A stretch of DNA of 64,000 nt from Beroe forskalii (taxonomy: Eukaryota > Ctenophora > Nuda > Beroida > Beroidae), in contig WFMF01000345.1 in assembly GCA_011033025.1 (NCBI GenBank), positions 62,001 to 126,000 on the forward strand. The letters are read 5' to 3'. A model generated the notes under the pieces. That model was not told where the DNA came from, made no database searches, and worked only from the letters and a program-made list of their open reading frames with translations. The position numbers and the translations under genes were made by a program. Positions 5,121-64,000 of the stretch are shown in pieces (position 1 is the first letter of the stretch; every line of letters begins with the position of its first letter).

Positions 5121-8100
5121 TTAGTGGAGTTTACTTTCAACGAATTGTTTTGCAATATTTTTGATCTCTTCAAGTTTTGCAGCACCTTTTCCACTGCCTT
5201 GTGCATATAGATCCTTTCCCCCACATTTTGCATTGATTAAAGAGGAAAATGAAGATAAACATTCATCAGCTCTGAGAGAATGTGCAGCAGATACCTTTTT
5301 AGGTACTAAACAGTGGAAAAATATGTCATCATCATTCAAGCCAAATATTACAGCAACTGTATCAGGTGATTTCTTCCTCATTTCTTTCAGCCCTTCTGAT
5401 ATCCCTTTGCTTGTTCCCTTGGATGATAAAATCTCAACAATAAAAGGATCCCCCTTTTTCTCTTTGATAAGATTGCTAATTTCAGCAGAATTTTGATTCA
5501 CTAAAGCCTTGTCAGATTCGAATTTCATCTTATCAAGCTTAGCTTTTATACCAGCAATTGCATCCCTTATCTTATCCCTTCTCCAAGCTGGAATAGTTGC
5601 CTTATCATTCTTTTGTATCATAGAATTAATAGACAATATGATATCACTATATTCATATTTTCCACTATTCACATGGGATATTATTTCATCAGCTTCCTGT
5701 TGTAAGACATTTCCCTTCAAAATAGCTGCAATGGCCTCATCTCCAGTAACTGCAATTATACGTCTGACTCCATTACTAATGGGCTTTTCACTTATAACTG
5801 TGAAATTTTCCATATGTCCAGCCCTAAGCAAATGAGTCCCTCCACAAAATTCAACACTAGTTACACTTCCTGCAGGGGCTGTAGGATCAGCAACTAGCTC
5901 TTTAACATCTATTCCAACAGAAACAACACGTACTGGATCAGGGTATGTCTCATCAAACATAGCACGAAGTCCTTGAATCTCTCTAGCAATACCCAGGGGA
6001 GCATTTTTAGCATAAACAATACCATTCTTATTGATGAAATCATTAACCACAATATCTACACCTTCCAGTTGCTCAGTTGAGAGAGGTGTTTTGTATGAGA
6101 AGTCAAAACGTAGTCTATCATCAGTAACTAATGACCCCTTTTGGTCAGCATCCCCACAGTGCTTACGAAGAGCAAAGTTCAGCAGGTGGGTTGCAGTGTG
6201 ATTGTTCATGATCTTTCTTCTTTTTGGAAAATCAAATGTTACTTCAACTTGGTTCCCAACAGCTATGTTCCCTTCAACTATACCTTTATGAAGAATATAT
6301 CCAGCTTTCACTTGAACATTATTAACCAGGATCCCAGAATCAGAATCACAAATAGACATGAAACCAGTATCATAAATTTGACCTCCTTGCTCAGCATACA
6401 TACAGGTTTTGTCAAGAATTATTGCAGCTCTATCTCCAGATTCAGCAGATTGGACAAATTTCCCTCCACATCTGATGGCTTTTATAGTTGCCGTTACATT
6501 TTCAAAAGTATATGAACCATTGTCATCAGCTGTGTAACTATATTTATAGATGTCATTGGTTGGGCTGATGCCAGATTTTTGAAGTTCACTTATCCCATGT
6601 ACATCAATATCTGTTTTATCATCATCTATTAGTCCTCCACAGCGAGACATATTTTGAGCTTTTTCCTTTGCAACTTCATAACCTTCACAGTCAACTTTGA
6701 GTCCTCTTTCTTCTGCCATTAAACAGGTCAGATCAAGAGGGAATCCAAATGTATCATAAAGTCTCCAAACAACATCACCTGGCATAGTTTGTCCTTTGAG
6801 GGAATCTGCAGTCTTATCAAATAATCTTTTCCCATAATTCAATGTCTTAAGAAATTGTGCCTCTTCTCTATTTATAATGTCCATTGTATACTGGGGATCT
6901 TTCATTAGTTCAGGGAATTCAGCCTTAAGAATTTCATTCACAACTGGAACTAATGAGGCAAAAAATCCAGGTCTTGCATTAAGCTTTTCTACAGCATACC
7001 TCACAGCACGTCGAAGTATACGTCTTAGAACATAACCCCTTCCAACATTATCAGGCATGCCACCATCACAAATTGCAACAGTGATAGTTCTTGCATGATC
7101 TGCAAGAACCCTATAAGCCATATCAATCCCATCAACATCATCAGCCCCAACTTTTCCTGTATATGGACGGGCTTGGGTACCTTTCTGAATAGCATCAAAA
7201 ATAGGCATAAAGAGGTCTGTATCATAGTTTGAGGACTTTCCTTGTAATACTGACACAATTCTTTCAAGGCCAAGACCAGTATCAACATGCTTGTCTGGAA
7301 GAGGAGTAAGGGACTGATCAGGTTCTCTGTTATATTGGATGAACACTAAATTCCAAACTTCTAGTACATCAGGATCATCCATGTTAACAAGATCAGCAGC
7401 ATTCCTATTACCTATTCTATCATAATGGATTTCAGAACAAGGACCACATGGACCAGTATCACCCATCTCCCAAAAGTTATCTTTGCAATCAAAAGGCAAA
7501 ACTCTTTCAGGAGGTAAACCCTGTTCAAGCCAGTAATTCTTAGCTTCATTATCTGGTTCTAATCCTAGTTTTTCATCACCACCAAAGTATGTGACATACA
7601 TACGATCCTTCTCAAGTCCCCAAACATTTGTTAACAAATCCCAAGACATTTCAATAATGCCCTTCTTAAAGTAGTCTCCAAATGACCATGTTCCCATCAT
7701 CTCAAAGAATGTGTGGTGATAGACATCTTTCCCAACATCATCAAGATCATTATGTTTTCCTCCAGCCCTGATGCATTTCTGAGAATTGGCAACACGTTTC
7801 CATTTTGACATGTCACTGTTTGGATCTACTGTTCCTAAAAAGATAGGCTTAAACTGATTCATTCCAGCATTAGCAAACAGTAGAGTAGGATCATCATGAG
7901 GTACAACACTAGAAGAGTGAACTTCAATATGATTGTGTTTGTCTTTGAAGTAGTCAACAAATGATCTTCTTATTTCACTAGCAGTTCTTGGAGTTGGCTT
8001 GGCAAAATATGGCATTCCATTGCTTTGCATATATCTGATATGACTTGCCCATCGCTTCACATGAACACCATCACAGCTAGAAACTTTTGACAATGTCTGA

Positions 8101-8183
8101 TCATCATCAAGGCTATAGTGATATCCACTGATATAACTCCTTGTAGCAAGATATTTATTAAGATCCTTGATTGTTGTAGCCAT
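5121..8183 (-). CDS. AARS1: Alanyl-tRNA synthetase, cytosolic type, with N-terminal eEF1B/GST-C-like extension
   Basis: Charges tRNA-Ala with alanine, using ATP. The uninterrupted frame gives 1,020 aa from the ATG at 8183; another ATG at 8219 adds 12 residues (MRLFVQHLGCKK). Visible parts in order: an extension of ~60 residues (DLNKYLATRSYISGYHYSLD ... VKRWASHI) resembling the N-terminal GST-C-like helical domain of eEF1B; the class II catalytic domain (RRSFVDYF, LLFANAGMNQFKPIFLG, TFFEMMGTWSFGDYFK, GCTGPCGPCSEI-type loop); the editing domain with zinc ligands (NHTATHLL and CGGTHL); and the C-Ala domain ending in GGKDLYAQGSGKG. Human cytosolic AlaRS is 968 aa and lacks the extension. No introns are seen, unlike its multi-exon neighbours. 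The upstream ATG could supply a different N-terminus, for instance for organelle targeting; this is speculation. Confidence 0.95.
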   Translation of the reverse strand: MATTIKDLNKYLATRSYISGYHYSLDDDQTLSKVSSCDGVHVKRWASHIRYMQSNGMPYFAKPTPRTASEIRRSFVDYFKDKHNHIEVHSSSVVPHDDPTLLFANAGMNQFKPIFLGTVDPNSDMSKWKRVANSQKCIRAGGKHNDLDDVGKDVYHHTFFEMMGTWSFGDYFKKGIIEMSWDLLTNVWGLEKDRMYVTYFGGDEKLGLEPDNEAKNYWLEQGLPPERVLPFDCKDNFWEMGDTGPCGPCSEIHYDRIGNRNAADLVNMDDPDVLEVWNLVFIQYNREPDQSLTPLPDKHVDTGLGLERIVSVLQGKSSNYDTDLFMPIFDAIQKGTQARPYTGKVGADDVDGIDMAYRVLADHARTITVAICDGGMPDNVGRGYVLRRILRRAVRYAVEKLNARPGFFASLVPVVNEILKAEFPELMKDPQYTMDIINREEAQFLKTLNYGKRLFDKTADSLKGQTMPGDVVWRLYDTFGFPLDLTCLMAEERGLKVDCEGYEVAKEKAQNMSRCGGLIDDDKTDIDVHGISELQKSGISPTNDIYKYSYTADDNGSYTFENVTATIKAIRCGGKFVQSAESGDRAAIILDKTCMYAEQGGQIYDTGFMSICDSDSGILVNNVQVKAGYILHKGIVEGNIAVGNQVEVTFDFPKRRKIMNNHTATHLLNFALRKHCGDADQKGSLVTDDRLRFDFSYKTPLSTEQLEGVDIVVNDFINKNGIVYAKNAPLGIAREIQGLRAMFDETYPDPVRVVSVGIDVKELVADPTAPAGSVTSVEFCGGTHLLRAGHMENFTVISEKPISNGVRRIIAVTGDEAIAAILKGNVLQQEADEIISHVNSGKYEYSDIILSINSMIQKNDKATIPAWRRDKIRDAIAGIKAKLDKMKFESDKALVNQNSAEISNLIKEKKGDPFIVEILSSKGTSKGISEGLKEMRKKSPDTVAVIFGLNDDDIFFHCLVPKKVSAAHSLRADECLSSFSSLINAKCGGKDLYAQGSGKGAAKLEEIKNIAKQFVESKLH

Positions 8184-9146
8184 TTTCTTGCACCCTAGAT
8201 GCTGAACAAAAAGTCTCATCAAGTTTTCATAATACTTTCAATCTCAAAAGCAAACATTTCAATTGCTACCTGTTCAGTAAATTTCATGAAGAATTGTTAA
8301 ATGTCAGAAAGGGAAATTATGTTTTTACATGGATAGTTGCATCACAATGAATTGGATAACATGCATTTTTAATCATTGCTTGCATTTTCTGTATTGCTTT
8401 GAATTTATTAAAAATCTCCTGGGAGTGTCAAATTTCCGAGGAGTGTCAAATATTATTTTTTGCAAAAGCACCAAACATTCATAATGGATAGCATAATAAA
8501 TAAAAAAATCAATTATTTCATCTGAAGAATATCTCTGCAGAACAAGGGATTTAAATAGTAAAATAAAATTTATAAAAAGTCCTGAGTATTGTAGATGAAC
8601 CTAATGGGAGTGGACCAGGCTCAAAAAGCAATCACATACAGAATAGTAGCTCCAACCAATGTCTATAGCAAATCAACACAGGCATGCATACTCAAAACTG
8701 AATCTGGCAGGTGGCACAAATGAAATCAAAGGCTATTTTACTATTTAATTTAGGACAAATGAACCTTTTATGGTTAATGACGTGCCTTATACAGTTTTGA
8801 ATTCTCTTGAACTTCATAATGTAGCACAATAAATAATAAATAAATAGCAATAATGACCTAATCCAATGTATTATCTATAGAGGTTGCTTCAGTGGGGTTA
8901 TACTCAAGAGTCACATTGTTTGAAATTGATTTGAGTAAATTCTGATATTTCTCTTATATTGCGAATTCGTTTAGTGAAACAAAGAGTTATTAATCAAAAA
9001 TATGGTCGACATCATCTATCATGTATCAGTTCTGAAATTTAAAATTAGTTATTCAAGAGGCAAAATCGGAAAATTATCAAAATATACATTAAATTATTGG
9101 TAAGTCTACGTATACAGTATACTATGTTACAAATACTTGTCTGGCG
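8184..9146. other. AT-rich 5' flank of the AlaRS gene
   Basis: No ORF or recognisable RNA gene is seen. The AlaRS promoter should be near 8230-8500, but I see no defined element. Confidence 0.4.
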
Positions 9147-14308: not shown

Positions 14309-14990
14309 TCATTTTAGTTTTGTGATATGCCATTTGCTATGTAAATAGTGAGTGTGTTTGCTCGTTTCTCTTTTTTCCTTTAACTCGTTCATATATTTGC
14401 GTCTGGTTTCAATGACATGACATAGAAATGTGCACATGCAGTTGATTATATATTCACGTCTTTGACTTAGTGAGATATCCTCGTCACTAGTGGCTGTGTG
14501 ATGGTCGTTGAATGCAGTATGATTGTCCAGGTTGGTGGAGACATATGGTGATAGGAGAGTGTGAAAATTAGCTTTGAGTTGAGATTGATCAATAGGCGTG
14601 TCAGATTGAGGTCCTAGAGCTTTATTCAGTCTCGTGATAAGCTTATTGCGCAGGACACCATACAGGTCACAGTCATTGATTGCGTGAAGTTCATCTTCTA
14701 TCACGTTAACACCCATTGATGTGTTACACCATGAACAAATACGCGCTTCTCTCGGTATTTTATTGTATCTTCCACATTCAATTTCCAGATCGTGAGAACT
14801 AATTCTGAATTTGGTTGTGTTATATCTTCGCGAAAATCCCTTTGATATATCTAAATATGGTTCTCTTGCAAATTTTTTCTTGCACGCGTGATAGAATGAT
14901 AGTTTAGACGATTCGGATTTTTCATATTCCCAGCAATTAGTCAAGTGTTCAGTTAGTGACTTTACTATTGTCTGTACGCGGAATTTGCAA
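14309..14990 (-). pseudogene. LINE ORF2 C-terminal domain, out of frame with the RT
   Basis: The frame is open from within the end of ORF2 and has no ATG where it should start. It reads SESSKLSFYHACKKKF, then RRYNTTKFRISSHDLEIECG, then RICSWCN and a conserved His/Cys pair (DELHAINDCDLY), i.e. C-x2-C ... H-x4-C. This region normally continues directly from the LINE RT domain (family knowledge). Here it is in the -1 frame relative to ORF2, which stops at 14965. The bases CCAAAAAGTC around 15028 are where the two frames could be joined. It is either a 1-bp mutation or, less likely, programmed frameshifting. Confidence 0.75.
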
Positions 14991-17900
14991 CTTGGTAGCG
15001 GTTGAATTCTTGATTGACTTTTTGGCGTATTTTTGGTTTGAACTGTGGATTTTTCAACACACGCGACGCAGTAACGTGATCTTGGTGATAAATATCATCC
15101 AGTTTTAGAAGAGGCTCAATGTTTTTGTACCAGGGGAGATTTAATGCTTTTTGTTCACACAGGGCAGCTTTGATAAATGTGCTCTTGGGGAGTTTGGATA
15201 TTCGTTTGAAATAATTAAGTGTAAGACGAATTGCTTGATAAATCAGAGGGTATCTTCCACTCTCACCCCAGACACCCACATTAGAGGCTTTGCGATGCAC
15301 ACCTAGGGCCCACTTGAGGAATGAAAGATGAACTTTTTCAGACGGCATACGGTTGATTTTCGAGATGAAATTCCTAACATTGAATGGGCTATGTTCGACA
15401 TGCTTGATCATACCTTTGTTGATAGCGCTAGTTGGTGTCCAGATCGGTGCTCCATAGAGTGCTATAGGTTTTATGAGTGAGTCGAATAGTGTGTTTAGTG
15501 CTCTGAATGATAATTTTGAGCGGATCACTGTGCGTTTCAGGCCAAAGAATGCTCTCATGGCTTTTGTTTTAAGTATTGATTGAGCTGTTGATAGTTCACC
15601 AGTATTGCGAAGTGTTATTCCTAGGTAGCAGTAATTTTCTACTACTTCCAAGTTTGTGCCGCCAAGTTTAAATTCTAAATTTTGATCTGAGTTACCATTC
15701 TTTCCAAAAATCATGACTTTTGTTTTAGTTTCATTCACTTCAATACCCCATTCAGAGCAGTAGTTCGCAAGAATGTTGAGCTGTGCTTGGCATGTTTTGG
15801 GGTCGAGTGACAACATGATAAGATCGTCAGCCCATAGAAGATGACTTATTTTGAGGCGTGATAGTTTAGGTCCACAAAATGTTTCTAAAAGCGGTGAGAG
15901 GTCACCTATGAAAATTTTGAACAGATCTGGTGAGAGAGGGTGACCTTGCTCTGTACCCTTTGATATATCTATACGCTTACTATGATGCCCAGAAAGTTTG
16001 ATGAATGCATATGAATTAGTGTACATATACTTAAGGACACTGAAAAATTTTCCTGTCACACCCATTTTGGCTAGTTTTTGAAATAACGCTTGGCGACAGA
16101 CAGAGTCGAATGCTTTCTTGAAGTCCACAAATATTGCGTAGACGGGTTTATGCATCTTCCTATACTTAGCTGCAATAGTTTGCATGGTTAGTATGTGATC
16201 GTACGTTTGTGCACCCTTGGTGAATCCAAGTTGGTTAGGGGGGTCAGGGCAATTTTCACTTTTGAATATTTTCAATCGCTCTAGTAAAATTGTTGAGAAC
16301 ACTTTGCCTATTACACTACTCACAGCAATTGCTCTGTAGTTATCAGGGTTAGAGACATCCCCCTTTTTATGAAGAGGGGTAATTATACTTTCGTTCCATG
16401 GATAAATACTGTGATCAAGGCATAAGTTAAAGAAGTTAGTTAGGAAGTTGATGTGATTAATGTCTAAACATTTAAGTAATTCATTGCTTATCATGTCGGT
16501 CGATGAGGCTTTACCTGATTTGAGTGACTTGATGGTGGAGCTCACCTCCTGAATGCTTATGGTTTTGTTAAGAGTGTCTGGATGTGTTGATGTTCTGTTA
16601 ACCTCGTCCGCTGTTTTCAAGAGTTCGTCTTTCTGAGTTTTGTTGATTGTTTTGTGATTGTCACTGTATAAGTCACGGAAGAAGGTCTCGAACTGTTTCA
16701 TGTCAGTGCTGTCAAAATCAAGCTTATTAGTTTTGTGTTGTTTGAGTTTCTTGAATGATTGCCAGTTCAACACTTTCCCATCCTCTATATCCTTGTTCAG
16801 ATGTTCAAAGTACTCTTTCTCACACTTTTTCAGTAATCTCTTGTAGTTTCCCTTCACTTTATAGAATTTTTCACGAATTAATGTACTTGATGGAAATTGA
16901 GATGTGATACTTGTGGCCTTACGAAGCTCCCGTTTAGCATTTCTTGCTTGCCAGTTGAACCAGGGGTTATTCTTCTGTTGACGCTTTGCTTGAGTTTTGA
17001 CTTTGGTCTGTTTAAATGCAGCACTAGCTAGTGATCGAATGTGTTCTGTGAAAGAGTCATTAAGGTCTCGCACTGTCTTGTTAAGTGTTTGAGAAGGTGG
17101 AGTGAGAGTTAAAGTCTCAATATTAGCGTTAAGTTTGTTGAGGGCATCAGTTGCTGAGTCACTGCTCAGGGAATCTGTGAATGTTGTCCTCGTTGTCTCG
17201 TTAAAGATAAACCTAGGCGATGATTTCTCATACACTTCATGAAGAGGCTTAGATGGTTCAACTTTAATAGGAGGACTGCGTAATTCCATAACTAGTGGTC
17301 TGTGGTCAGAGTACATTGTGAGGTCCTGAACTTTCATGAAATTCACGTGATTACGGAGTTTTGATGAGACTGTGAAGTAGTCTATCACACTACATCCTCT
17401 CGGTTGGATGCTCGTAAATTGGCCCCTGAAATCACCTAAGGTACAGCCGTTGAGTATTTGAAGTTGATTATTTGATACCAAGTTTATGAATTGCTTACAA
17501 AAGCTATTTTTCACTGGGTCCTCTGAGTTACGAGTTTTATGAATGTCGGGCTCATAGTCCTCAGGCATTGGTAAGAAATCGTTAGTTTCACTCTCTATTG
17601 TGCCTGTCTGATTTGCTATTCTGGCGTTGAAGTCACCACATAACACCACTTCACCCTTCGGCCGCAGGTCATTCACTATTTCTTCAATTTTTGACATCAT
17701 TTCACGTCCACTGTCAGTTTTTGATCCACTTGAGTTATGAGGTCTCACATAGGCATTTACGATAAAAATGTCTTCTGCCTGTCGGAAGAATGCTTTCTTC
17801 AGTCTGCATACCAAATAGTCTGCATGATTTTTGTCTTTAATGAATTCCACACCTTGCCTGTACTCGTTCTTGACCAAAATTGTGACACCGCCGCATTTGT

Positions 17901-18147
17901 TGTCCTTACGATAGTTGCACTCAGCCCTGTAACCTGTAAGATGAACTTCCCGTCTGGTTTCTTGTAAACATATGAAATCATTGCTCTGTAACACCTTCTT
18001 GAATTCTTTAATTTGAAATTTATTACCTTCTGTCGTTGATGGAGCTTGAATATTCCATGATATAAATTTGAGTGAGTTCCTGGTGACAGACACTGATTCG
18101 TTCTTTTTGTCCTTACTGACTGTTAACTTCTTTTTATTCTTTGTCAT
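14965..18147 (-). CDS. LINE ORF2: AP-like endonuclease and reverse transcriptase
   Basis: 1,060 aa from the ATG at 18147. Endonuclease, residues ~25-290: FISWNIQAPS, FICLQETRR, VVLCGDFNARI and YSDHRPLVMEL carry the Asn, Glu, Asp/Asn and Asp-His catalytic positions of the exonuclease-endonuclease-phosphatase fold. RT, residues ~500-800: ITPLHKKGDVSNPDNYRAIA, NQLGFTKGAQTYDHI, YAIFVDFKKAFDSV, KGTEQGHPLSPDLF and LLWADDLIMLS, the last being the catalytic box with WADD in place of the more usual Y/FADD. The enzyme nicks target DNA and primes reverse transcription there. The Cys/His C-terminus is displaced by a frameshift, and the frame ends early at 14965 (TAG). Confidence 0.92.
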   Translation of the reverse strand: MTKNKKKLTVSKDKKNESVSVTRNSLKFISWNIQAPSTTEGNKFQIKEFKKVLQSNDFICLQETRREVHLTGYRAECNYRKDNKCGGVTILVKNEYRQGVEFIKDKNHADYLVCRLKKAFFRQAEDIFIVNAYVRPHNSSGSKTDSGREMMSKIEEIVNDLRPKGEVVLCGDFNARIANQTGTIESETNDFLPMPEDYEPDIHKTRNSEDPVKNSFCKQFINLVSNNQLQILNGCTLGDFRGQFTSIQPRGCSVIDYFTVSSKLRNHVNFMKVQDLTMYSDHRPLVMELRSPPIKVEPSKPLHEVYEKSSPRFIFNETTRTTFTDSLSSDSATDALNKLNANIETLTLTPPSQTLNKTVRDLNDSFTEHIRSLASAAFKQTKVKTQAKRQQKNNPWFNWQARNAKRELRKATSITSQFPSSTLIREKFYKVKGNYKRLLKKCEKEYFEHLNKDIEDGKVLNWQSFKKLKQHKTNKLDFDSTDMKQFETFFRDLYSDNHKTINKTQKDELLKTADEVNRTSTHPDTLNKTISIQEVSSTIKSLKSGKASSTDMISNELLKCLDINHINFLTNFFNLCLDHSIYPWNESIITPLHKKGDVSNPDNYRAIAVSSVIGKVFSTILLERLKIFKSENCPDPPNQLGFTKGAQTYDHILTMQTIAAKYRKMHKPVYAIFVDFKKAFDSVCRQALFQKLAKMGVTGKFFSVLKYMYTNSYAFIKLSGHHSKRIDISKGTEQGHPLSPDLFKIFIGDLSPLLETFCGPKLSRLKISHLLWADDLIMLSLDPKTCQAQLNILANYCSEWGIEVNETKTKVMIFGKNGNSDQNLEFKLGGTNLEVVENYCYLGITLRNTGELSTAQSILKTKAMRAFFGLKRTVIRSKLSFRALNTLFDSLIKPIALYGAPIWTPTSAINKGMIKHVEHSPFNVRNFISKINRMPSEKVHLSFLKWALGVHRKASNVGVWGESGRYPLIYQAIRLTLNYFKRISKLPKSTFIKAALCEQKALNLPWYKNIEPLLKLDDIYHQDHVTASRVLKNPQFKPKIRQKVNQEFNRYQVANSAYRQ

Positions 18148-18186
18148 GATTAATGTTTGTATTTAGTTATGAGAGCTGAATAATAC

Positions 18187-20847
18187 TCACGTGGCTACAC
18201 GGGATGAGGATGGTTGAGCTCTTCTGTACATCACATCTGGGTGGCAGTTCTTCCTCATCCGATGGATCTGGTGCCTGAAGTTCCCCAAAATGAGATCCTT
18301 GCCTCTGTCAGAGAGATGAATCCCGTCGTCACTGTGCAGCTCTCTCTTAAATTTCTCGTCCTTGATGAAGTTGCCGTTGGGATTACACCAAAACTTCTTG
18401 AGTCCTGCAGCACGTGGCACCTGGTCCATGAACTCATCCACCAACTTCTCTAGGTGAGATCTGAAGGTGAGGATCTTCCTGTTGTCGTCTGCATCTGATG
18501 TAAGGAGCGGAAGGGAGATGATTACTTGAGTTCCATACTGGTGCTCCAGGAACTTCCGGAACTTGATGAAGTTATGCAGTGTCTCCCTCAGAGGTATCCC
18601 ATGAAGAGCATCGTTCACCCCGAGATGAATGTACACGTAGTCAGGGCGCATCTGCTGGATCTTCTCTCTCAGGTCGTTGTCGTTCAGGCCTCTGGTGTTC
18701 CTCTTGTTGATCTGAGTGACCTCGTAGAGAAGCCCTAGTGATGAGATGTCCTTGATGTGCCTCATGATGGAGTCTGTTATCAGCACCACTGAGCTGCAGC
18801 TGCGTTCATCTGATCGGGAGACTACTCTGGTCCTGGTGGCTCTAGGAGGCTCGGTGATGCCCACTGTAGTGATCTTCGGCAGTGGTGCTCGCTGTCCTGC
18901 TTCAGTCATCGTGAACCCAGCTGCTCTCCTTGACACTGGTTTGGAAACGTGATTCGATGTTTGAGGTGGCAGAAGGGTTCTCTTTCCTGAAGGTCTAGGG
19001 GGTTCATCTCTGCGAAGTGATGCTTGGATGTTCTTGAAGTCTTTCTGGAGCCTGCTAGGGTGAAGGTCTGACCACACGGGATGATCCTCAAAGTTCCAAT
19101 TTTCTTCTTTTTCTTCTTCTCCGTCTCGTTGAGCCACGTCCCCTTCTTGTGCAGCTGGAACCTCACTCTCTCTTCTGATGCTTTGTGGTGGTATTGGGGT
19201 CTTCTGAGATCTTTCTTCGACTATCATCTTGTGAATGTTCTTGATTAGAGTCGAGTCTTCACGGAAGAATGCACTGTTGTGAAAGCGCTCCAGGTCAGTC
19301 ATGAAGTTTTCGATGTTGTCTTTGATGGCATCAATCTTCACTTCTTGTACTTTGATGTCGTCATAGTTCTTCTCGATGGCCTTCTTCGTGTTGGATGTGA
19401 AGATCATGCTCTGCTTCCACAGGTCTTTGAGTTCAATCACCTGTTTAGTGTGCTTGGTGATGTCACACGAACCACTGCTCTTTGTGTCTTTCAGGTCGAT
19501 CTCCCTCCGAAGAGATGCCACTTCGTCTCTCAATGCCAGAAGCCCAGTCTTCAGTTCGATGAGGGTCTCTTCGACGATTGGCATCAGTTGGCACTGGGTT
19601 GATCTTTGCGGGAGACTCTCGGTGGTTTCAGGTGGGGGGCTGGGCTTACTGATAGTCACTTTAGGAGGGGGTGAAATGTGATTCCTCTGGATGACAGTCT
19701 GCTCGAAATCTTCTTGAGGCTCCTTGATGTCTGGTGGGGCGTCTTCATACCTTTCATCTTCAATTCCGTCAGCTTTTAGGATGTCTGAGACCCGTTCGTC
19801 AGTGATGTTGAGTAACTGAGGTGGATTGACAGGACCATCGTCTACAGCAGGGGCATCTTCGCATGGTGTCAGAATCACACGGGGGAGTGAGGTATCTAGG
19901 ATCGACATTTCCTGCACAGCACAGCGCGGACTGTCCCCCTCCTCGACGTTGGACTCAGTCTCAGTGTCATGCTCTGTCTCGCTGGCAATGGGTCTGGCTG
20001 ATGTGGAGGACATCTCACTCTCAGTGTCCACATCTGAGACGGTGTTGGGTGATCCTATGAAGAGCACTAGGATTTGCTCACTGTTGTTGTCACTTTCTCC
20101 TCTGAGGATGGAGAAATTGTAGTCCTGACTGCATTTCCCTGCCATCGTGCTGAGTGATCCCGGGTGTAGAGCGACTTTGTGAGTGACTCGAGATCCTTTC
20201 TTCAGTGCGAGAGTTCTTGGGGCTCCGAGGGAAAGAACAGTGATCACTGGTCTGTCGCCGTTATCTTCTTTCCCGCTGAGACTGCCATAGGGAATGTGGT
20301 CTTTGAACGTTGGGAGGCGTCTGATGATGACTTTGAAGACGGTGGATGTGACATCGAAGCACTGTTCGTTGGAAGTGTTGACCTTCTTAGCCAGGAACGT
20401 CAGTTGCTCCATCAGGTTATCATCGTCACACGTTGAGAGCTCCGTGAGATGAAGGGTGAGCGGGTCAGTGGAGTCTGTGTCCCGTTTTGATGACTTGAGT
20501 ACACTTGACTGGAGGGTTAAGAAGAGTTGATGTGCCTCCTCGCAGCTGATGAAATCCTCTATGTAGATTGACTTGGCCGAGTAGTCCTTCTTCTTCTTCG
20601 GCTTTTCCTCCTTGAGTTTCCCCTTGCCTTTGTCTGATCCTCGTGAACTCGCACGACTCCTGCAGCTGACATCACTCTGCTCCGAATGGCGACGGATGCG
20701 ATTAATCAGCTTCTGATCCGGTGTGAGGCTCAGGTACTGTTGTACAGCTGGCTGGCTGCTGCTCGCGAAGGATCGTGTGACACGCCGATTTGAAGCTAAG
20801 GGGGTCCTGTACACTTCTCCTTCTCCAGAGTCGTCCTTAGTAGCCAT
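18187..20847 (-). CDS. LINE ORF1: coiled coil plus SGNH/GDSL-type esterase
   Basis: The likely start is the ATG at 20847 (MATKDDSGEGEVYRTPLASN), giving 886 aa; the frame is open further upstream through the 5' repeats, but that part is not protein-like. The N-terminal half is polar and low in conserved features. A coiled coil follows (ETLIELKTGLLALRDEVASL RREI). The last ~200 residues are an SGNH hydrolase: VVLITDSIMRHI (Ser block, TDS instead of GDS), YIHLGVND (Asn block) and DGIHLSDRG (Asp-x-x-His block). Esterase-bearing ORF1 proteins occur in CR1-type LINEs, where they are thought to act in the ribonucleoprotein. The stop at 18187 is followed 39 nt later by ORF2. Confidence 0.85.
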   Translation of the reverse strand: MATKDDSGEGEVYRTPLASNRRVTRSFASSSQPAVQQYLSLTPDQKLINRIRRHSEQSDVSCRSRASSRGSDKGKGKLKEEKPKKKKDYSAKSIYIEDFISCEEAHQLFLTLQSSVLKSSKRDTDSTDPLTLHLTELSTCDDDNLMEQLTFLAKKVNTSNEQCFDVTSTVFKVIIRRLPTFKDHIPYGSLSGKEDNGDRPVITVLSLGAPRTLALKKGSRVTHKVALHPGSLSTMAGKCSQDYNFSILRGESDNNSEQILVLFIGSPNTVSDVDTESEMSSTSARPIASETEHDTETESNVEEGDSPRCAVQEMSILDTSLPRVILTPCEDAPAVDDGPVNPPQLLNITDERVSDILKADGIEDERYEDAPPDIKEPQEDFEQTVIQRNHISPPPKVTISKPSPPPETTESLPQRSTQCQLMPIVEETLIELKTGLLALRDEVASLRREIDLKDTKSSGSCDITKHTKQVIELKDLWKQSMIFTSNTKKAIEKNYDDIKVQEVKIDAIKDNIENFMTDLERFHNSAFFREDSTLIKNIHKMIVEERSQKTPIPPQSIRRESEVPAAQEGDVAQRDGEEEKEENWNFEDHPVWSDLHPSRLQKDFKNIQASLRRDEPPRPSGKRTLLPPQTSNHVSKPVSRRAAGFTMTEAGQRAPLPKITTVGITEPPRATRTRVVSRSDERSCSSVVLITDSIMRHIKDISSLGLLYEVTQINKRNTRGLNDNDLREKIQQMRPDYVYIHLGVNDALHGIPLRETLHNFIKFRKFLEHQYGTQVIISLPLLTSDADDNRKILTFRSHLEKLVDEFMDQVPRAAGLKKFWCNPNGNFIKDEKFKRELHSDDGIHLSDRGKDLILGNFRHQIHRMRKNCHPDVMYRRAQPSSSRVAT

Positions 20848-21704
20848 GTAGACATGCAGTGAGGGGTGCAGTGCCTCCGTCATCCATGACACGTCCTTTC
20901 GTTGGTAGAGCTTGAACGGGGCTTTGATGCAGACTGGATCAAGTAGACTGGTACTGGCAAGAAGAACAAGCAATTCAAGAACACAAAGAATCGGAATTAC
21001 TGACGTGTACCACGTGATATTGTAAGATCTGCTGTTGAAATGCGCTCGATTTCCTTTCTCATTTCGCGCTCGATTCGATATTGCTTCGCTCAGTGAGGGC
21101 ACAAAATTTGGGCGCGGCGCTTCAGACTGTGACCTGGAGACCGTGCGGTTGTGAGTGGGGTCGTGCCGTGCTGTGTGCGGTGTGGGTTTGAGCCGTGCTG
21201 TGTGTAGTGAGGAGTGATTGAGATAATCATGCAACACCTCAGCAGAGTTAGCACCTGAAAAACTGTAGGGGATAGGGGACGGGGTGACGGGTGTCTTGTC
21301 CTGAGAAGTCATTGTCATTGAAAATAGTTCCCAGCTATACATTCCACATAGATTCACAGCATAATACTTCATGTGCCCATGTATATTGTATAAAATGTGT
21401 ATTGAAATTGAATGTATAGTTCTCCAAATTGACACACATATACCATTGAGAGGATTGTTCCTGTACGCAGTAATTAGTTCATTGAGGCGTATCAAATTAC
21501 ACGCATGAGCTGTCAGATTGTTAATTAGCGAGTTCATTATGCAAAGAGTGTTATGTGTAGCATTGTAGACTGCGTGTAAAAATGCCAATAGATAATTGTC
21601 ATTGTTCACCTCACTAATAATCCAGTGTAGTGTCTTGTGATGTTGAGTTGCTGCGTTGTCCCCTGCCTTGTACCGTGTGTTCTTCACTTCGTTATCGATC
21701 GTCA

Positions 21705-22090
21705 GCACCCGTCCTCCGTCATGATCCCACCCACCAGCATCCCGCCTCCTCCGTCGCACACCACCCGTCCCACCAGTCCACCCAGCACCGTCCAGCTCCT
21801 TCACACTGTCCAGCTCCGTCACACCGTCCCCAGCACTCCACAGTTCGAATTCGAGATCTTTCTTCGTCAGAAATCCTCCGTCATGATGTTGCCATCCAAT
21901 CCCGAGATCCCGCCTCCTCAGTCGCACAGTTCCTGTCTGGGCAAGCCATCCCATAACATCCTGATCCATCCCAGTCCTCCCGTCGCTGGAGATCCATTGT
22001 CCAAATCTGTCATTCGCTGCCCTCCCGTCGTGATCCACCCGTCCAAGATCCCGCCTCCTCAATCGCACAAATCCGGTCCAGTCACCCCAT
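21705..22090. repeat. Tandem repeats in the LINE 5' region
   Basis: Three units spaced roughly 150 bp apart share CGCCTCCTC(A/C)(A/G)TCGCAC and an upstream CCTCCGTCATGAT- or CCTCCCGTCGTGAT-type phrase (at about 21712, 21876 and 22021). On the transcribed strand these give RLRRRDLG ... DHDGG repeats. This suggests promoter monomers at the start of the element. Confidence 0.65.
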
Positions 22091-22309
22091 CCCACGCTCA
22101 TGAAATCCATCACACTGCTCACATCATCCCAAGTGATCCAATCCACTGCTGCTCCTTCTGGTAATCCATCAACTCCAATGTGGTCAAAAGGATTCCTCAC
22201 ATGTTGAAGGTTGGTTCCAATTCCCACAAAAGGGATTAGTAAAACGATTAAAGGTAGCAGCGCGCAAAACGTTACGAAATCAAATGTGTAAATGTGTAAA
22301 ATGTCGCAC

Positions 22310-22775
22310 TTAGACACCTTGGTCAAGCCGCGTTTGATCTATGTTTATTCATCGGAGGATGTAATGTCGGGGGGTCAAATGTCGCAGCAATCGTCGAACT
22401 GCGACGTTTGACCCCCCCAAACCTTTTCTCTATAGATTTACAGTACTGTAGTAGGGGTGTAGTGTCGGGGATGTAGTGTCGGGGATGTAATGTCGGGGGT
22501 GTAATGTCGGGGGGTGTAATGTCGGGGGGTCAAGTGTCTCTTTACCTCCACTAGGCACCACTCAGCCTCCACTCTGCTCCACCAAGCCTCAACTAGGCTC
22601 CACACGGCCTCCACTAGGCTCGGATAAACAGCCTCCACTAGGCTCCACACAGCCTCCACTAGGCTCCACTAGTGGAGGCTGAGTGGGGCATAGTGGAGCA
22701 AACTTTGGCAAATGCTTCCACTTTTTTTGGAGTTTGCCAAAAAAAGTGTTTGCCAAAGTTTGCCATAGAGGGATA
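22310..22775. repeat. Dispersed repeat, right copy (pairs with 11920-12340)
   Basis: The same ordered landmarks as the left copy, with an added array of ATGTAATGTCGGGG units (22440-22540) and a regular CCTCCACTAGGCTCCAC array (22540-22690). It ends in TTTGGCAAATGCTTCCAC, a T-run, and GTGTTTGCCAAAGTTTGCCA. Confidence 0.75.
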
Positions 22776-36571: not shown

Positions 36572-39500
36572 ATGATTTGTTGCGCAGTTGCTGTTGGGCT
36601 GATTGCCCTAATTGCATCCCTGATTTTTTATCAAAGATCTCGAAGATATTTGAGACTGAACCATCTGGTTGAAAATCTTAAAAGCCAGGCAGATTCATGG
36701 AAGGAAACAGAGATAAATGAGTTTGACGTCACAAGTTTTATTGGTGATAATGAATCGGAAAATTTGACAGGTTTGTCTCCTATTGTTATAATATTCTAAT
36801 CATCTTTTAATAACTTTTTAATTTTGATCAAATTTAATCAAGTTGTTTAATGCGATCCAACCCACACACTATAGGTACTTATATCTTTATATATCAGTAT
36901 TCTACTGACAGTTTCTAGATAACTAATTAATAATTGGACTAATAATTGAACTAATCATTGAAGTAACTTAGTAATGTTAATAATTATTAAAGATAAGTAC
37001 CTTTAAGTATTGGATCAACAGGATAACAGCCTGAAAAATATAATGTTTGTTTCATAACACTTGAATAACAATGTTAAAAACTGACTTCTACCCCCAGCTG
37101 TTCATAGCTCTTTGAAAGGATGCAGTCACACTTTACAAATTTTATGCAATTTGTTTAGGTATTTATCAGTTTATCAAACACTCCTCAGCTATCTTTTCGT
37201 TTGCAATCTTCACCGAAATTTTCTTCTCTCCTTTCTTTCCAATCTTATTCGACATTTTCTGCCATTCGGAAATCTGCTGAGATTGGTTCAACTGCTGGGA
37301 ACATCTTCAGAATTTTCATTTTCAGTTCTCTTATTTTTCTTTGTACAGGTGCAACCAAAATTTCAGTAATCTTCGAGTTTAACACGAGTGGATTTATAAC
37401 ACTGTTCATTGGGTTAATGATTAATGTAAATATCTGATAGTATTTCGTGGCATCAAAAATCCCCATTGTATGTAGAAAACATAGGAAAATGAATGGAATC
37501 CAACATGCAAAATCTGTTGATACAATCACTGTAACTTTTCTTTGTACTGTGACAGATCTTTTCTCCAAAACCTTGTTAGTGTGTTTGTCAGCCACCTCTA
37601 CCACGTTTTGACTAGAGGCCCTTAGTATTGAAATGTATGCTACTGAAATTAATAGAAAAGCAACAATTTGCATCATATGTGTCACCCAAACAAATATCAA
37701 CTGAGGATCATTGCCTTTCACGAAGTATTTGAATACACAGACATCATCATTTCCATAGAACTGAAGTTTCATATGGTCTATGCCTTCGTAATCCCTGGAA
37801 AACATTTCAGATGATAGTTTTCTTATCATTTCCCAACTAAGTTGAACTGCTCCCAATCTACCATAATAGGCCTCTAAGACTTTCTTATGGTCACTTTTAC
37901 TAGATGGGCCTATGAAGAGGGGAACCTGTGACCCATGGTAAACATCGTTCACAAAATAGTCCTCAAATCCGTCAGCCAAAGGTATTATTGCCACAAATGC
38001 TGATAAAAATATTACCATTACACTGGTGGACAAATTCTGAAGCAGTATCTTCCTTGAAATAGGGACAGGTATTCGAAGGTTTCTGGAAATGTTCGATGCT
38101 CTGATTAAGCTAAGTGCAGTCATTGAAAAAACAGAAATTGAAATACCAAATGAATTCAGTATACCAACAACAGAACACGGTGAACTGATCAGCCATTCCA
38201 ATTGCTCTCGGCAATAATCTGTACCATAGTACACATTGAAAGCAGAAATGGTACACATGTATACCCCTACGAGAAGATCGCCTAAACTTATCAGGAAAAG
38301 GAATGTGCGGTTTGTGAACCTTTCACTTGTTTTACACTTCAAAACATCTTTAAGTGTGACTGGAAGAGTAAAGATGTTAAAACCTACAGCTAGTATCCCT
38401 AACACCCAGCAGAAAGCTTCAATCCAAAGATTGTGTATCATTTTCTTTCCACAAATATCATTGCATTCATCTGAAAGGTCTAAACAATTTATTTGGCCAT
38501 CACAAACTTTGGTTATTGGCGTGAACGCCTTAGTGACTCGGCACTGAAAATGGTTTGTACAGTTTATCTCATCTGATCCATCACCACAATCATCAACAAG
38601 GTTACACACTTTGTCATAACTTACACAATTTCCATTACTGCAAGGAAATATGTTATCATGGTGATATGTACCATGCCTTCTATCCCTAATTAAAAAGGTT
38701 AATCTTGAGTTATTGGAAAGACTGAATACTCTATCTTTGTATTGACCTTTGCATGAATCGTGCATTAAGGGTTTTGTTAACACGCAAGGTGACTGAATGC
38801 ATTTGTTGAGGCAGCTTAAGTAAACATAAGATGCGCCATATATATGATTGCAATCCTTTGTCCAACTGTGGTCAGAAGGTAAAATGAGGTTGATGTTAGG
38901 CGTCTCTCCTAATGTTTGATGATTATCTAGAGAAAACAATGCCTTTGAGCAATGTGCTCCTATCTGGGAGTCCAATTCACCGATACCTTTCAGGCAGTGC
39001 AGAATACTGACCTCTTCTCCCCATTTCACAGGTGAAGTAAAAACTTTGCTGAGTTTCCTTGACTGTTGACAGACATAATTTTCATTTCCACAGGTGTCTT
39101 TACCATCGCACATTTCATGAAACTCAACAAACCCCTTGAAGCAGAGATAAACCTCCTTACATGTTAAATGCATTTTAATCCGCTCAGTTTGCCCTTTTCC
39201 GCATGTAGGCCATTCGCTATCTTCATCTTTTTGGTTGACACAGTCAACTACGTCGTCATTAATCCAATTCATGGGTATGCTACTAGGTTTCCTAGAAGTA
39301 CTATAGCCTGATCTTTCGCAATCTGTGGTGACTAAATTAGAGCAGAAGTTCTCATCTGTTCTGTCGGTGCAGTCCACTACACCATCACAGATCTGATGTT
39401 TGTGTACCCAGCAAGAGAATGAGACTGTGACACACTTTACATCCATCCCATTGTCACAGAGTGCATTTCTGTCTCTCATCTTGGGATTACATATGATTTG

Positions 39501-42500
39501 TTTTGCTACAGTTGAAGGGTACCCATCCACATCACAAGACAATCCAATGCGTTCCACATCCGAACAGTTAGTTTGTTCCTTGTACGCAACACAGATTGGA
39601 GAGTATGAAACTTGCACATCCTTTATATTAAATCTTTTATTAACACGTCCAATCGGGCCACATCTAGTGAAATTAAATATTGGAATAATAGTACCATCAC
39701 TGTAATCTGCTGCCTCACAATAGCCTGTTATGTTGCCACTAGAGCATAAATCTTCGTCAGCACCATTTAGACACAAATTGTTATGCCATTCTTGGGTGCA
39801 ATGGAATGAAAAACTGATACTTTGGATCCCAAATGTTTCACCTGTATCACATAGAAAACCATAGGTAAAACCATTGCAGTACATCTCAGAGTCTAGTGAA
39901 GAATTATATTCCTTCATTTGCCACTGCTCAGAAGTAACTATGCCATCACATAAAATTTCCGTTGAATGACATTGCTTTTCCAGTTCGTATTCATCTTCTA
40001 GTTCTATGCCACAATCTTCGGGCGTCTGTCCAAAATCCAGATGGCATATCTTATCCTCGAGGTTGGTAACATGTTGAAAGTTGTATAAACCCGTTGAACT
40101 CCTAATATGGCAAATGTGACCACATGGAGCGTTGCCTGTTTCAAATGCAAAATGGGAATCTGCCATAATATGTGAATTGTGATCCACTTTTGAATATTCA
40201 TCTAACCCACATGACTGATAGGATAGAGGGTCATTCCTACAGGACTTGTCAACTGCAATGGGAACCTCCTGGTCTCGTCCTGCTGGCGTGTTGCGTATTG
40301 CAGTATATCGCACGTCAGAGTTGATGCATTTGAAATATGGTTCACTTACACCAGGGTCCTTGCACACGATCTTCATGAAGCTTTTGAACTCGGTGACAGA
40401 ACAAGTTTCTGAAATTTTATACTAAAATTATAAAATTATACTTCAATTCATTTAATTCAAATAGTTAAAAATTGCAGGAAACCTCTACCATTATACTGTA
40501 AAGCTTGGTAAATCGATTGCCGCACTATATAGACTATAGAGACAGCGCACTATAGAGATAAGCCGTTATGGTGCCAGACTACCCATTCTATATATAGAGA
40601 CAACACACTTTATGGAGACAAGCTTTATAAGTTTATATTATACACTATCGTATTAAGCTTTTCTCTTATACGCTAAATCTCTCGGTTAACCCTGATAACG
40701 CCTAACGGACCCCGGATAACTAGTCCAATAATGTGACCCGCTGGATCATTGCTGGGACACTGAGGGACTCACAGTACAGGATTACAGGGTGCCATCATGT
40801 GATCCGCCTGATCGAGATCGTAGCTGACACTATCCAATACCGCCTGTTGTCTGATGGACTCATATCTCAAGCCATCAGATGAGAGGAGGGTGATCTGCCC
40901 TTGTCGACGGATGCCACTTCCACATCTGCCAGGCAGTCCTGAGAACCCCTACAAGCCTTGGCTACAAGACACGGGTACGAGACTATCCCTCTTTCACACC
41001 TGGGTCCACAAACTGATAATGCTCGCCATGGTTCCAGTTGCCGATGTCCCTGACGCGTTCTCCACCATCACAGACGCAATTCCTGACACCGAGAGAGGAC
41101 TTTGGTCAGCGGAGTCAGTGGCAGCCGGGCACGCTCCCCTCCTGAGACCTGGAATCATACGGTCAGAGACCAGAGTGGAGACCGGGATGAACAAAACCAA
41201 GAACTTCTGCAATTCCTCCAGCGAGTCCTTCAACAAGACCTTCTTGGACGCTGTGGGACACTCCAACCCCACCATCTACAACTTCCTGTCAGCAGTGCAG
41301 TTGGGGCAGTCGTCAAAAGCTCAAAAGAGGGAAGACCGCATTGTACCTGATGTCATTGTACTTACTAATTAATCAGCGAAGCAAGTAATTAGAGTCCTAT
41401 ACCTGACACCATTATCTGATTATCACTCTTCGAATGCCAGTTGATGGAAGGTTGAGTGGGACCAATGCAATGTGACCCTCTACCGTGATCACTAATAAGG
41501 CTCGCTTCACGCTTAATTAGGACGTGTCTCTCTATATAGTGCGCTTTCACTCGAAGTTTGTTCGGAACATTCATTATCATATGGTCGACATTTTGTCTCT
41601 ATGTACTTATATAGTGAGAAAAAAAACGACAGTGCACTTTATAGAGAAACTAGCTGGCCCATTGGGCAATGGGCCTGCATATACACAGCTCACTCGGCGC
41701 CCATACACAGCACCTCGTTCGCAAATTTTAAACCCCACAATTCAAATTGACATAATATTTTTTACCACATCAAAAAATTGCAATCAGATCAACAAGAATT
41801 GCGCCTGCCAGCACAATTCTTGTTATCCATTGTTCCCGTATGCAGGCGCTTAATTTCCCTCCCCAACATACGAAAATTATAAATCACGAGGATGAATAAC
41901 AGTTAATCAAAGTTCCTCGCACCGTATACGCATAACTTTGTGGCGGCGCGTAGGTTTCACGTGTGATCATCAGTTCACGAACGCTGCGCGGCGCATGTTT
42001 CGTAGGTTCGTTGTAATTTGAGATTTCGCGCAAAGCCTTTATTTCCTTTTATGTAAGTTTTGTTACGTTAGAATTTTGTAGACTCCTGCGTACGCATTTG
42101 CCTATTTATGATTACGCTGCTTCTTTGATATGATTATAATGGTTTTTACTCCGAGATGATCCTTATGATTTAATGATTCATACTTTTCAATTTTCATTGG
42201 AATTGGTTCAACATATTTCTTCGAACAGAACTTAGACGATTGAGTAGCCAACTCTGTCAAATGACCTCAATTTATTGTCTTCATGTTGCAGCATCATTTT
42301 TCCTGAAATAGTTGTTGCCTACTTTTGTTGTTTAAAATGTCAGTAATAAAGTTAGAAATGAGTTTTTAACTAAATTATTATTAAGTTCACTCCTCGGCCT
42401 TATGTTGTGAAGTTGTGATAGCCGCAGGAGTCAATGACTGATATTCTGATAATTGCTCTTCAGGCAGCTGATTGCTGCCCAAGTCAGGAATGACTTGGGC

Positions 42501-60859: not shown

Positions 60860-63800
60860 CATGGTGATTTTGTAAGCATAGCGGTGACAGGGCTACGATA
60901 CAGTTATGTGGCACGACGTTATGATAGGCACATACAGTTATGATTGAAAGTACACGACATAGCGGCGATAGGGCAATATCACAGTTAGTGATAGGCACAT
61001 TACATAGCAGGATGAAAGTGTATTGGCGATAGCAGGACAGGCACAAGAATATAAAGGTGACAGGCACACGACATAGCAGGACAGCAATATCATTGTTATG
61101 GGCAGTACACGACACAGCGGCGATTGGTGCGGCAATACATAAAGCAGGGCAGGCACAATTGACAAAGCCATATGACAGGCGGTTACGATTACGTTATGAC
61201 AGGCAATACGACACAGTTATGACAGGCAATATCATATGACAGCACACGCATAGCGGCGATTGCGGTTACGCACAGCAGGACAGGCACGACACAGTTATGA
61301 CAGGCATACGCTGGCGACAGGCAGCATTACATAGTTGCGCAGGCAATACGACACAGCGGCGACAGGTACAATACAGTTATGATTGCGCGTCACGACATAG
61401 CATATAAAAAGTACACGACACAGTTGCGGCAGGCACACGAATACAGTTGGCGACAGGCACATTACATACAGACATAATATCACATTGCCAGATTGCGCAA
61501 TACTCACAGTTATGACAGGTACAATGACATACAGTGACAGGCGCCACGATACAAAGCAGTGATAGTAATACGACATTGTTAAGTGATAGGGCAATAATGA
61601 CATGTTATGGTGGCATGACGGCCCACAGCAGTGGCGGAAAAGGCATGACACAGCGGCGACAGGCATGACATCAGCAGATGCGCCACGACACAAAGGCGAT
61701 TGCGCACACGAATATGTTATGATTAGGCAATGACGTTATGACAGGCAATATCACACACCCTCGCGATGGCACACGACACAGTTGGCGATTGCGCAATATC
61801 ACATAGCAGGACAGGCACACGATTACAGTTATGACAGGCAATATCATTGAGTTGGCGATTGCGGCGCCACGACACAGTTATATGGTGTTAATGACATTGT
61901 TATGACAGGCAATATCGGTTGACAGTTATGACAGGCAATAACATTACGTTATGATTGCGGCGCCACGACACATCAGACAGGTTACGACACAGTTATGATT
62001 GCGCGCTACGACGACAGCAGGCAGGTACACGACATTAGTTGCGATTAGGCAATACGACAGCAGGACAGGCAAATACTAAATATTGGCGGATAGGCGGCCA
62101 CGACACAGTTATGACAGGCACACGACATAGCAGTGACAGGCAATACGACATACAGCAGGCAATATCAAGAGCAAAGCAGGGCAGGCACACGACACAGCAG
62201 ACAGGCAATAATGACATTGTGCTATGATTAAAATACGACGACAGTTATGACAGCATTACAGCAGGGCAGGCACAGTTATGATAGGCCACGACACAAAGCA
62301 GGATAGGCACACGACACAGTTGCGACAGGGCAAATATCACATTGCTGGCGGATTGCGCGCTACCACACAGCAGCGGCAGGCGGCCACGACATTAAGCGCG
62401 ACAGGCCACGACACAGTTATGATTGCGGCCACGACATGAAAGGCGACAGGCCACGACATGTTGCGGCAGGCACACGACACAGCAGGGCAGGTACATGACA
62501 CAGTTATGATAGGTACATTACACAGCAGGGTGCAGGCGCTAATAGGTACATTACATAGCAGGATAGGTACATGACATAGCAGGATAGGTACATGACATAG
62601 CAGGATGGGTACATTACATAGCAGGATAGTACATGACATAAGCAGGATAGGTACATGACATAGCAGGATAGGTACATTGACATAGCAGGATAGGTACATT
62701 ACATAGCAGGATAGGTACATGACATAACAGGGTAGGTACACATGACATAGGAGGATAGGTACATGACATACAGGATAGGTACATGACATATGGGATAGGT
62801 ACATGACATAGCAGGATAGGTACATTACATGGCAGGATAAGGCATTAAATAGCAGGATAGGTACATGACATAGCAGGATAGGTACACTGACAAACGGGAT
62901 GGGTACATTACATAGCAGGATAGGTACATTAAATAGCAGGATAGGTACATTAAATAGCAGGATAGGTACATGACATAGCAGGATAGGTACATTACATAGC
63001 AGGATAGGTACATGACATAGCAGGATAGGTACATGACATAGCAGGATAGGTACATGACATAGTAGGATAGGTACATGACATAGCAGGGTAGGTACATGAC
63101 ATAGCAGGATAGGTACATGACATAGTAGGATAGGTACATGACATAGCAGGATAGGTACATTACATAGCAGATAGGTACATTACATAAGGTAGGTACACAT
63201 GACATAGCAGGATAGGTGCATGACATAGCAGGATAGGTACATGACATAGCAGGATAGGTACATTACATAGCAGGATAGGTACATTACATAGCAGGATAGG
63301 TACATGACATAGCAGGATAGGTACATGACATAGCAGGATAGGTACATTACATAGCAGGATAGGTACATGACATAGCAGGATAGGTACATGACATAGCAGG
63401 ATAGGTACATTACATAGGATAGCAGGATAGGTACATGACATAGCAGGATAGGTACATGACATAGCAGGATAGGTACATGACATAGCAGGATAGGTACATG
63501 ACATAGCAGGATAGGTACATGACATAGCAGGATAGGTACATGACATAGCAGGATAGGTACATTACATAGCAGGATAGGTACATGACATAGCAGGATAGGT
63601 ACATGACATAGCAGGATAGGTACATGACATAGCAGGATAGGTACATGACATAGCAGGATAGGTACATGACATAGCAGGATAGGTACATGACATAGCAGGA
63701 TAGGTACATGACATAGCAGGGTAGGTACATGACATAGCAGGATAGGTACATGACATAGCAGGATAGGTACATTACATAGCAGGGTAGGTACATGACATAG

Positions 63801-64000
63801 CAGGATAGGTACATTACATAGCAGGATAGGTACATGACATAGCAGGATAGGTACATTACATAGCAGGATAGGTACATTACATAGCAGGATAGGTACATGA
63901 CATAGCAGGATAGGTACATGACATAGCAGGATAGGTACATGACATAGCAGGATAGGTACATGACATAGCAGGATAGGTACATGACATAGCAGGATAGGTA
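60860..64000. repeat. 21-bp satellite array, running off the right edge
   Basis: From about 62520 the unit GGTACATGACATAGCAGGATA repeats nearly perfectly, mostly alternating ATGACATAG and ATTACATAG variants. Left of that (60860-62520) the same phrases appear scrambled: ACAGGCACACGACACAG, AGCGGCGACAGG, GTTATGACAGGCAATA. Because 21 is divisible by three and no minus-strand frame of the unit has a stop, long frames of (CYVMYLS)n and (MSCTYPA)n arise; I read these as artefacts. Such gradients are expected at satellite margins, but consensus errors in the assembly could add to it. Confidence 0.95.

Follow-up and report, generated by a model that had tools for sequence, protein, structure and literature searches.

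Does an aminoacyl-tRNA synthetase of the ctenophore Beroe forskalii carry, ahead of its catalytic core, a docking module of the kind found in the elongation factor eEF1B? The question is raised by the alanyl-tRNA synthetase (AlaRS) gene on contig WFMF01000345.1, which lies within positions 62,001 to 126,000, a stretch of 64,000 nucleotides that we refer to as the window. A preliminary description of the locus had proposed an eEF1B/GST-C-like domain fused to AlaRS, and the comparisons reported below bear this out. The frame and coordinates given there hold as well: the minus-strand open reading frame spans 5121-8222, is open throughout, and runs from the extension, with its ATG at 8183, into the core without a stop. 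The gene and the parts of its extension are located as follows.

5121..8183, minus strand: AlaRS gene, from the open frame and TIGR00344.
8013..8183, minus strand: eEF1B-beta/GST-C-like module, residues 1-57 (MATTIKDLNKYLATRSYISGYHYSLDDDQTLSKVSSCDGVHVKRWASHIRYMQSNGM), from phmmer against PDB, profile and shuffles, and alignment.
7986..8012, minus strand: short linker, residues 58-66, between the end of the GST-C similarity and the start of AlaRS homology.
8049..8054, minus strand: R44-W45, site of the helix-7 arginine of GST interface 2, from the alignment.

Ahead of the AlaRS core the protein has about 66 extra residues, made up of the 57-residue module and a linker of about nine. Homology to human AlaRS (5knn) starts at about residue 67 counted from the ATG at 8183 (residue 80 of P0001); the alignment with 4xem reaches back to residue 61, but does so across tag residues of the 4xem chain. 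A phmmer search of residues 1-72 against PDB chains returned nine sequences at E up to 10, the best being human eEF1B-beta (5dqs_D, E = 3.4e-4), with AIMP3 (five sequences, 0.0068 to 0.12) and CG18548-PA (0.81) among the others. Against a profile of four human GST-C domains the extension scored 28.9 bits, a value reached by none of 20,000 shuffles (best 12.0), and when this human-only profile was run against 6,398 frames of retrieved genome DNA, the whole AlaRS open frame matched with E = 2.1e-4 (domain 0.0017). In pairwise comparisons with human domains, each gauged against 300 shuffles, the extension stood 13.7 (eEF1B-beta), 12.4 (AIMP3) and 10.3 (EPRS) standard deviations above the shuffled scores; with modules from its own genome the corresponding values were 15.8 (PheRS-alpha), 7.6 (an exon on contig C514) and 4.2 (CysRS). 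A query of the whole genome with human EEF1B2 likewise returned the AlaRS extension as the best match to its N-terminal domain, a weak one (E = 0.14). Judged by sequence similarity, residues 1-57 resemble the GST-C domain of eEF1B-beta (and of AIMP3) far beyond chance.

When the extension itself was used to query the whole genome, three places besides AlaRS were found, the best of them on contig C780 (E = 0.0087). There, positions 616451-616679 (L020 5952-6180) make up a first coding exon, beginning MNPDELDNFLSLRSYINGFSYSYADLALFNKIKEGF...NISRWFGHIK, that encodes a GST-C module like those of eEF1B and AIMP3, and PheRS-alpha domains scoring above their Pfam cut-offs lie downstream. In the predicted splice, the donor (GATGATACAG followed by gtaatt) and the next acceptor (atttcag followed by ATATGTCC) share phase 1 and connect in frame, one codon ahead of a methionine that matches what we take to be the usual start of PheRS-alpha. 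The best PDB match of this second module is AIMP3 (2.7e-4), with eEF1B-beta at 9.7e-4; it shares 31% identity with the AlaRS module over 58 columns (E = 2e-10 in a single comparison), and the helix-7 arginine is found in both. PheRS-alpha is thus, as predicted here, a second, independent host of the same kind of module. Chance would hardly account for two unrelated class II synthetases in one genome both having this tag at the same end. In gene structure the two hosts differ: a phase-1 junction sets off the module of PheRS-alpha as an exon of its own, whereas that of AlaRS lies in a continuous frame. Matches of the extension on C610 and C196 were rejected, the module not being seen there by eye and the human-only profile giving nothing better than E 3.5; matches on C366 and C1 (by eye only) and on C437, a GST-like open frame (PF00043, 1.3e-6), were also dropped.

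The 2024 table of AARS Online lists GST superfamily domains on CysRS, GluRS-E, MetRS and ValRS, all of class I (PMC11580382; the literature is cited here and below from excerpts of open-licence articles). Since only these four synthetases are listed, AlaRS and PheRS-alpha, both of class II, look like new hosts of what appears from its sequence to be a known module. Likewise, a naturally occurring GST-like domain on AlaRS or PheRS was not reported in the open-licence articles listed by the searches or in the excerpts consulted, in agreement with the preliminary description, whose author knew of none on AlaRS.

In an alignment of five sequences, L8, L12, Y17, G20, D27, R44 and W45 are invariant, and R44-W45 aligns with the arginine of human eEF1B-beta, AIMP3 and EPRS. 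This helix-7 arginine is a residue of GST interface 2, and EF1-beta domains are described as missing the thioredoxin half (PMC10813123). The AlaRS module is also of the short form without a thioredoxin half: the similarity covers the C-terminal half only, and with 18 open codons ahead of the ATG at 8183, there would be room for a thioredoxin half only via an upstream spliced exon. With human eEF1B-beta (EEF1B2, 5dqs chain D), its best PDB match, the module shares this short form and the pattern LN.YLA..SYI.GY..S..D ... RW..HI, which reads LNKYLATRSYISGYHYSLDDD...HVKRWASHI in AlaRS; it differs in preceding AlaRS rather than an exchange domain, and in having three residues fewer from the conserved D to RW. 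At E up to 10, AlaRS gave no match to the exchange domain EF1_GNE (PF00736).

Other GST-like tags on or around synthetases resemble this one in part. Like the GST-C of CysRS (the human splice form; contig C190 in this genome), the module stands ahead of its synthetase, but CysRS is a class I enzyme and here has its module halves on successive exons. Vertebrate ValRS, in the eEF1H complex, is similarly linked to eEF1 by a GST-like domain, but this is a full GST domain on a class I enzyme and is possibly restricted to deuterostomes (PMC4394549); ValRS and spliced human CysRS interact with eEF1-gamma (PMC10813123). In AIMP3, EPRS, MetRS and yeast Arc1p, GST-like domains assemble synthetases via interfaces 1 and 2 (PMC6760448, PMC4394549), but each of these domains is a complete two-part GST. 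The human or yeast multisynthetase members named in the excerpts of these two articles do not include AlaRS, and a loose association of Trypanosoma brucei AlaRS with a synthetase complex is described as possible (PMC4394549).

Several further GST-like modules were located in the genome. On CysRS (C190, L044 7676-8104), the GST-C halves LLNAHFAKSSYVEGSRSQKDR and SYPHLSRWYCHV lie on successive exons before the core; CysRS with a GST-C module is known from other species. Ahead of this GST-C there is a long in-frame leader, basic, serine-rich and by eye like a mitochondrial signal, together with an internal ATG, and this arrangement may provide dual targeting through alternative starts. The exon at C514:608494-608652 (L049 about 6495-6653) encodes a GST-C, starts from an ATG of its own and may end in a phase-1 donor; it matches AIMP3 in PDB (1.4e-4) and exceeds the cut-off of Arc1p_N_like. 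A hexamer scan of about 23 kb downstream (L049-L051) gave no clear gene, and about 14 kb upstream, on the same strand, there is a match to a class Ia synthetase. AIMP3-like GST exons are found at C359:187407-187583 and C860:4436-4588 (E ~5e-7 with the human-only profile, below cut-off with PF21972; named by eye). Although they lie on different contigs, these two are nearly identical and may stem from a recent duplication or represent two haplotypes. MetRS has a GST part that appears degenerate (L046; profile E 1.4). These modules come from a survey of part of the synthetases; the class II model PF00587 and the class Ia model PF00133 gave four and 12 matches.

We also looked for the eEF1B subunits themselves. 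The exchange domain PF00736 is found at three loci, all on C314, and neither among these nor among the eight places matched by human EEF1B2 is there an eEF1B-beta gene that combines GST-C with an exchange domain; a further 29.7 kb of C314 sequence together with L019 gave no GST-C match better than E 0.89. The absence of an ordinary eEF1B-beta is weak evidence, since introns inside the domain or assembly gaps could hide the gene. The three exchange-domain copies stand within about 6 kb (L019) and are delta-like by eye, one of them with internal stops. For eEF1B-gamma, EF1G (PF00647) exons are found at C110:1135088-1146057 in two sets about 10 kb apart. The exons beside them carry VNVTRWFDTIV, whose RW aligns with R44-W45 of AlaRS, and are apparently the GST part of two eEF1B-gamma copies.

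We consider it probable that the AlaRS of this species has acquired an eEF1B-beta-type docking module at its N terminus, corresponding to the helical half of a GST-like domain in shortened form. Such a module would pair through interface 2, by stacking of the helix-7 arginine, with a GST-like partner. The likeliest partner would be eEF1B-gamma, which holds eEF1B-beta in this way in other eukaryotes, with AIMP3 or EPRS as the second choice, and we infer that AlaRS may sit within a synthetase or elongation-factor complex. The tag would keep AlaRS and PheRS beside eEF1A and so give charged tRNA a shorter way to the ribosome, as is assumed for vertebrate ValRS in the eEF1H complex. A far-reaching version of this proposal, which we regard as speculative and on balance unlikely, is that tags spread by exon shuffling onto both synthetase classes (AlaRS, PheRS-alpha and CysRS) while ordinary eEF1B-beta went missing, so that the freed eEF1B-gamma would serve as a scaffold seating synthetases beside eEF1A, in a supercomplex unlike the vertebrate multisynthetase complex.

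A number of results weigh against a docking module on AlaRS. In the PDB search, EPRS appeared only at E 1.4 and 1.7, and the MARS domain showed no match to the extension (0.6 standard deviations above 300 shuffles). The preliminary description had looked to a hidden Markov model comparison with GST-type families: the human GST-C profile gave the score reported above, but no Pfam GST-like model reached its cut-off on the extension, the best being Arc1p_N_like with 17.0 bits against 27. The unrelated RAWUL model scored about the same (16.5 bits, cut-off 33.5), and with the whole AlaRS protein no GST model, GST_C included, was among the Pfam matches; we do not claim membership of the extension in the GST_C or Arc1p_N_like families. 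Codon usage of the extension is neutral, with 1315 of 5000 random stop-free stretches of the window scoring as high, and use of a later in-frame methionine, M58 (residue 57 in module numbering), as the start would yield AlaRS without the extension. Finally, the stretch ahead of RW is shorter than in eEF1B-beta, as noted, and the helix-5 capping box phi-S/T-x-x-D-phi is imperfect (Y23-S24-L25-D26-D27-D28, in which S24 and D27 are present and D28 is not hydrophobic); binding may be weakened by these two features. Codon usage and Pfam models are of little help; the case for the module rests on protein homology and recurrence. A chance resemblance within an untranslated open 5' leader would fit the neutral codon usage and the similar score of an unrelated Pfam model, but in view of the shuffles, the PDB match and the second occurrence on PheRS-alpha, we consider it highly improbable.

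The remaining alternatives accept the module and differ on its partner, its age or its purpose. AlaRS might be docked on a multisynthetase complex, at interface 2 of AIMP3 or EPRS, instead of on eEF1B-gamma; AIMP3 is the next PDB match of the AlaRS module (0.0068, with EPRS only at 1.4) and the best match of the PheRS-alpha module, and AIMP3-like exons are present on C359 and C860. This is a possible but rather doubtful reading, as the AlaRS module is short, of the eEF1B-beta form without a thioredoxin half and closest to eEF1B-beta, and no ordinary eEF1B-beta was found to occupy eEF1B-gamma, though introns could hide one. The GST-C module could also be real but old, widespread and unannotated in the AlaRS of some animal group rather than an innovation of this lineage. 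A single AlaRS locus was found in the genome (216 Mb) at a threshold of E 0.001 (two candidates scored), which fits AlaRS being a single lineage at the origin of animals (PMC4558845), and the comparison sets searched for relatives were prokaryotic and viral only; in their contigs, the 53 and 9 pattern matches to residues 1-83 included no confirmed relative. Human AlaRS, however, aligns only downstream of the module, and the 2024 table, as excerpted, lists no GST domain on AlaRS or PheRS (PMC11580382), so that we treat an old origin as tentative and somewhat unlikely. A further alternative is a module that serves self-association of AlaRS, or only the sharing of the single AlaRS with mitochondria, with no link to translation factors. 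The single locus and the mitochondrial-signal-like leader of CysRS speak for it; against it, in most of the cases covered by the excerpts (PMC10813123, PMC4394549) the partner of a GST-like module is GST-like but different from it, residues 1-57 show nothing like a mitochondrial signal by eye, and the 12 residues upstream would make a poor one. We consider this quite improbable and retain the docking module of the eEF1B-beta type as the preferred explanation.

The host enzyme is complete. Counted from the ATG at 8183, AlaRS has 1020 residues in one frame, is covered at full length by TIGR00344 alaS (814.2 bits, cut-off 457.05, profile positions 1-847 of 847), and contains catalytic, editing and C-terminal domains that all exceed their Pfam cut-offs. 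These domains and the features around the start are listed below.

6231..7976, minus strand: class II AlaRS catalytic and tRNA-recognition region (tRNA-synt_2c), Pfam PF01411, 689.9 bits.
5757..5933, minus strand: part of the editing domain (tRNA_SAD), Pfam PF07973, with the motifs HTATH and CGGTH in frame, which we take to be those of the editing domain.
5136..5450, minus strand: DHHA1 C-terminal domain, Pfam PF02272.
8202..8213, minus strand: candidate 3' splice acceptor CTTTTTGTTCAG, 18 bases ahead of the ATG, by eye.
8184..8237, minus strand: open stretch of 18 codons upstream of the ATG at 8183, from reading the frame.

The ATG at 8183 stands in the context AAAATGG, which is counted as a good start context. 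An alternative in-frame ATG at 8219 would add MRLFVQHLGCKK. The candidate acceptor, a pyrimidine-rich stretch with its AG end at 8202, is possibly that of an intron in the 5' untranslated region or a trans-splice site; if it is used, the upstream open part, the ATG at 8219 included, would be removed.

Elsewhere in the window, an element resembling a long interspersed nuclear element occupies 14965-22326 on the minus strand, with an endonuclease and reverse transcriptase frame at 14965-18147 and an adjoining frame at 18187-22326 whose end is like an SGNH-type hydrolase (both by eye). At 62337-63982 (minus strand), the open frames consist of a minisatellite with the short repeated unit MYLSCYV; repeat-made frames also occur near MetRS (L046). 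An intronless frame of 1043 residues at 37245-40376 (minus strand) combines low-density-lipoprotein-receptor-like repeats with a seven-helix receptor part, by eye. Together with AlaRS and MetRS, this receptor frame suggests that the genome is intron-poor in many genes.

If AlaRS and PheRS-alpha do carry such a module, a tag of this type could be attached to unrelated enzymes of class II, and this genome would offer a natural test of whether such tags serve the tethering of synthetases to elongation factors. It would also mean that relocation of a single small exon can change the wiring of a translation complex.

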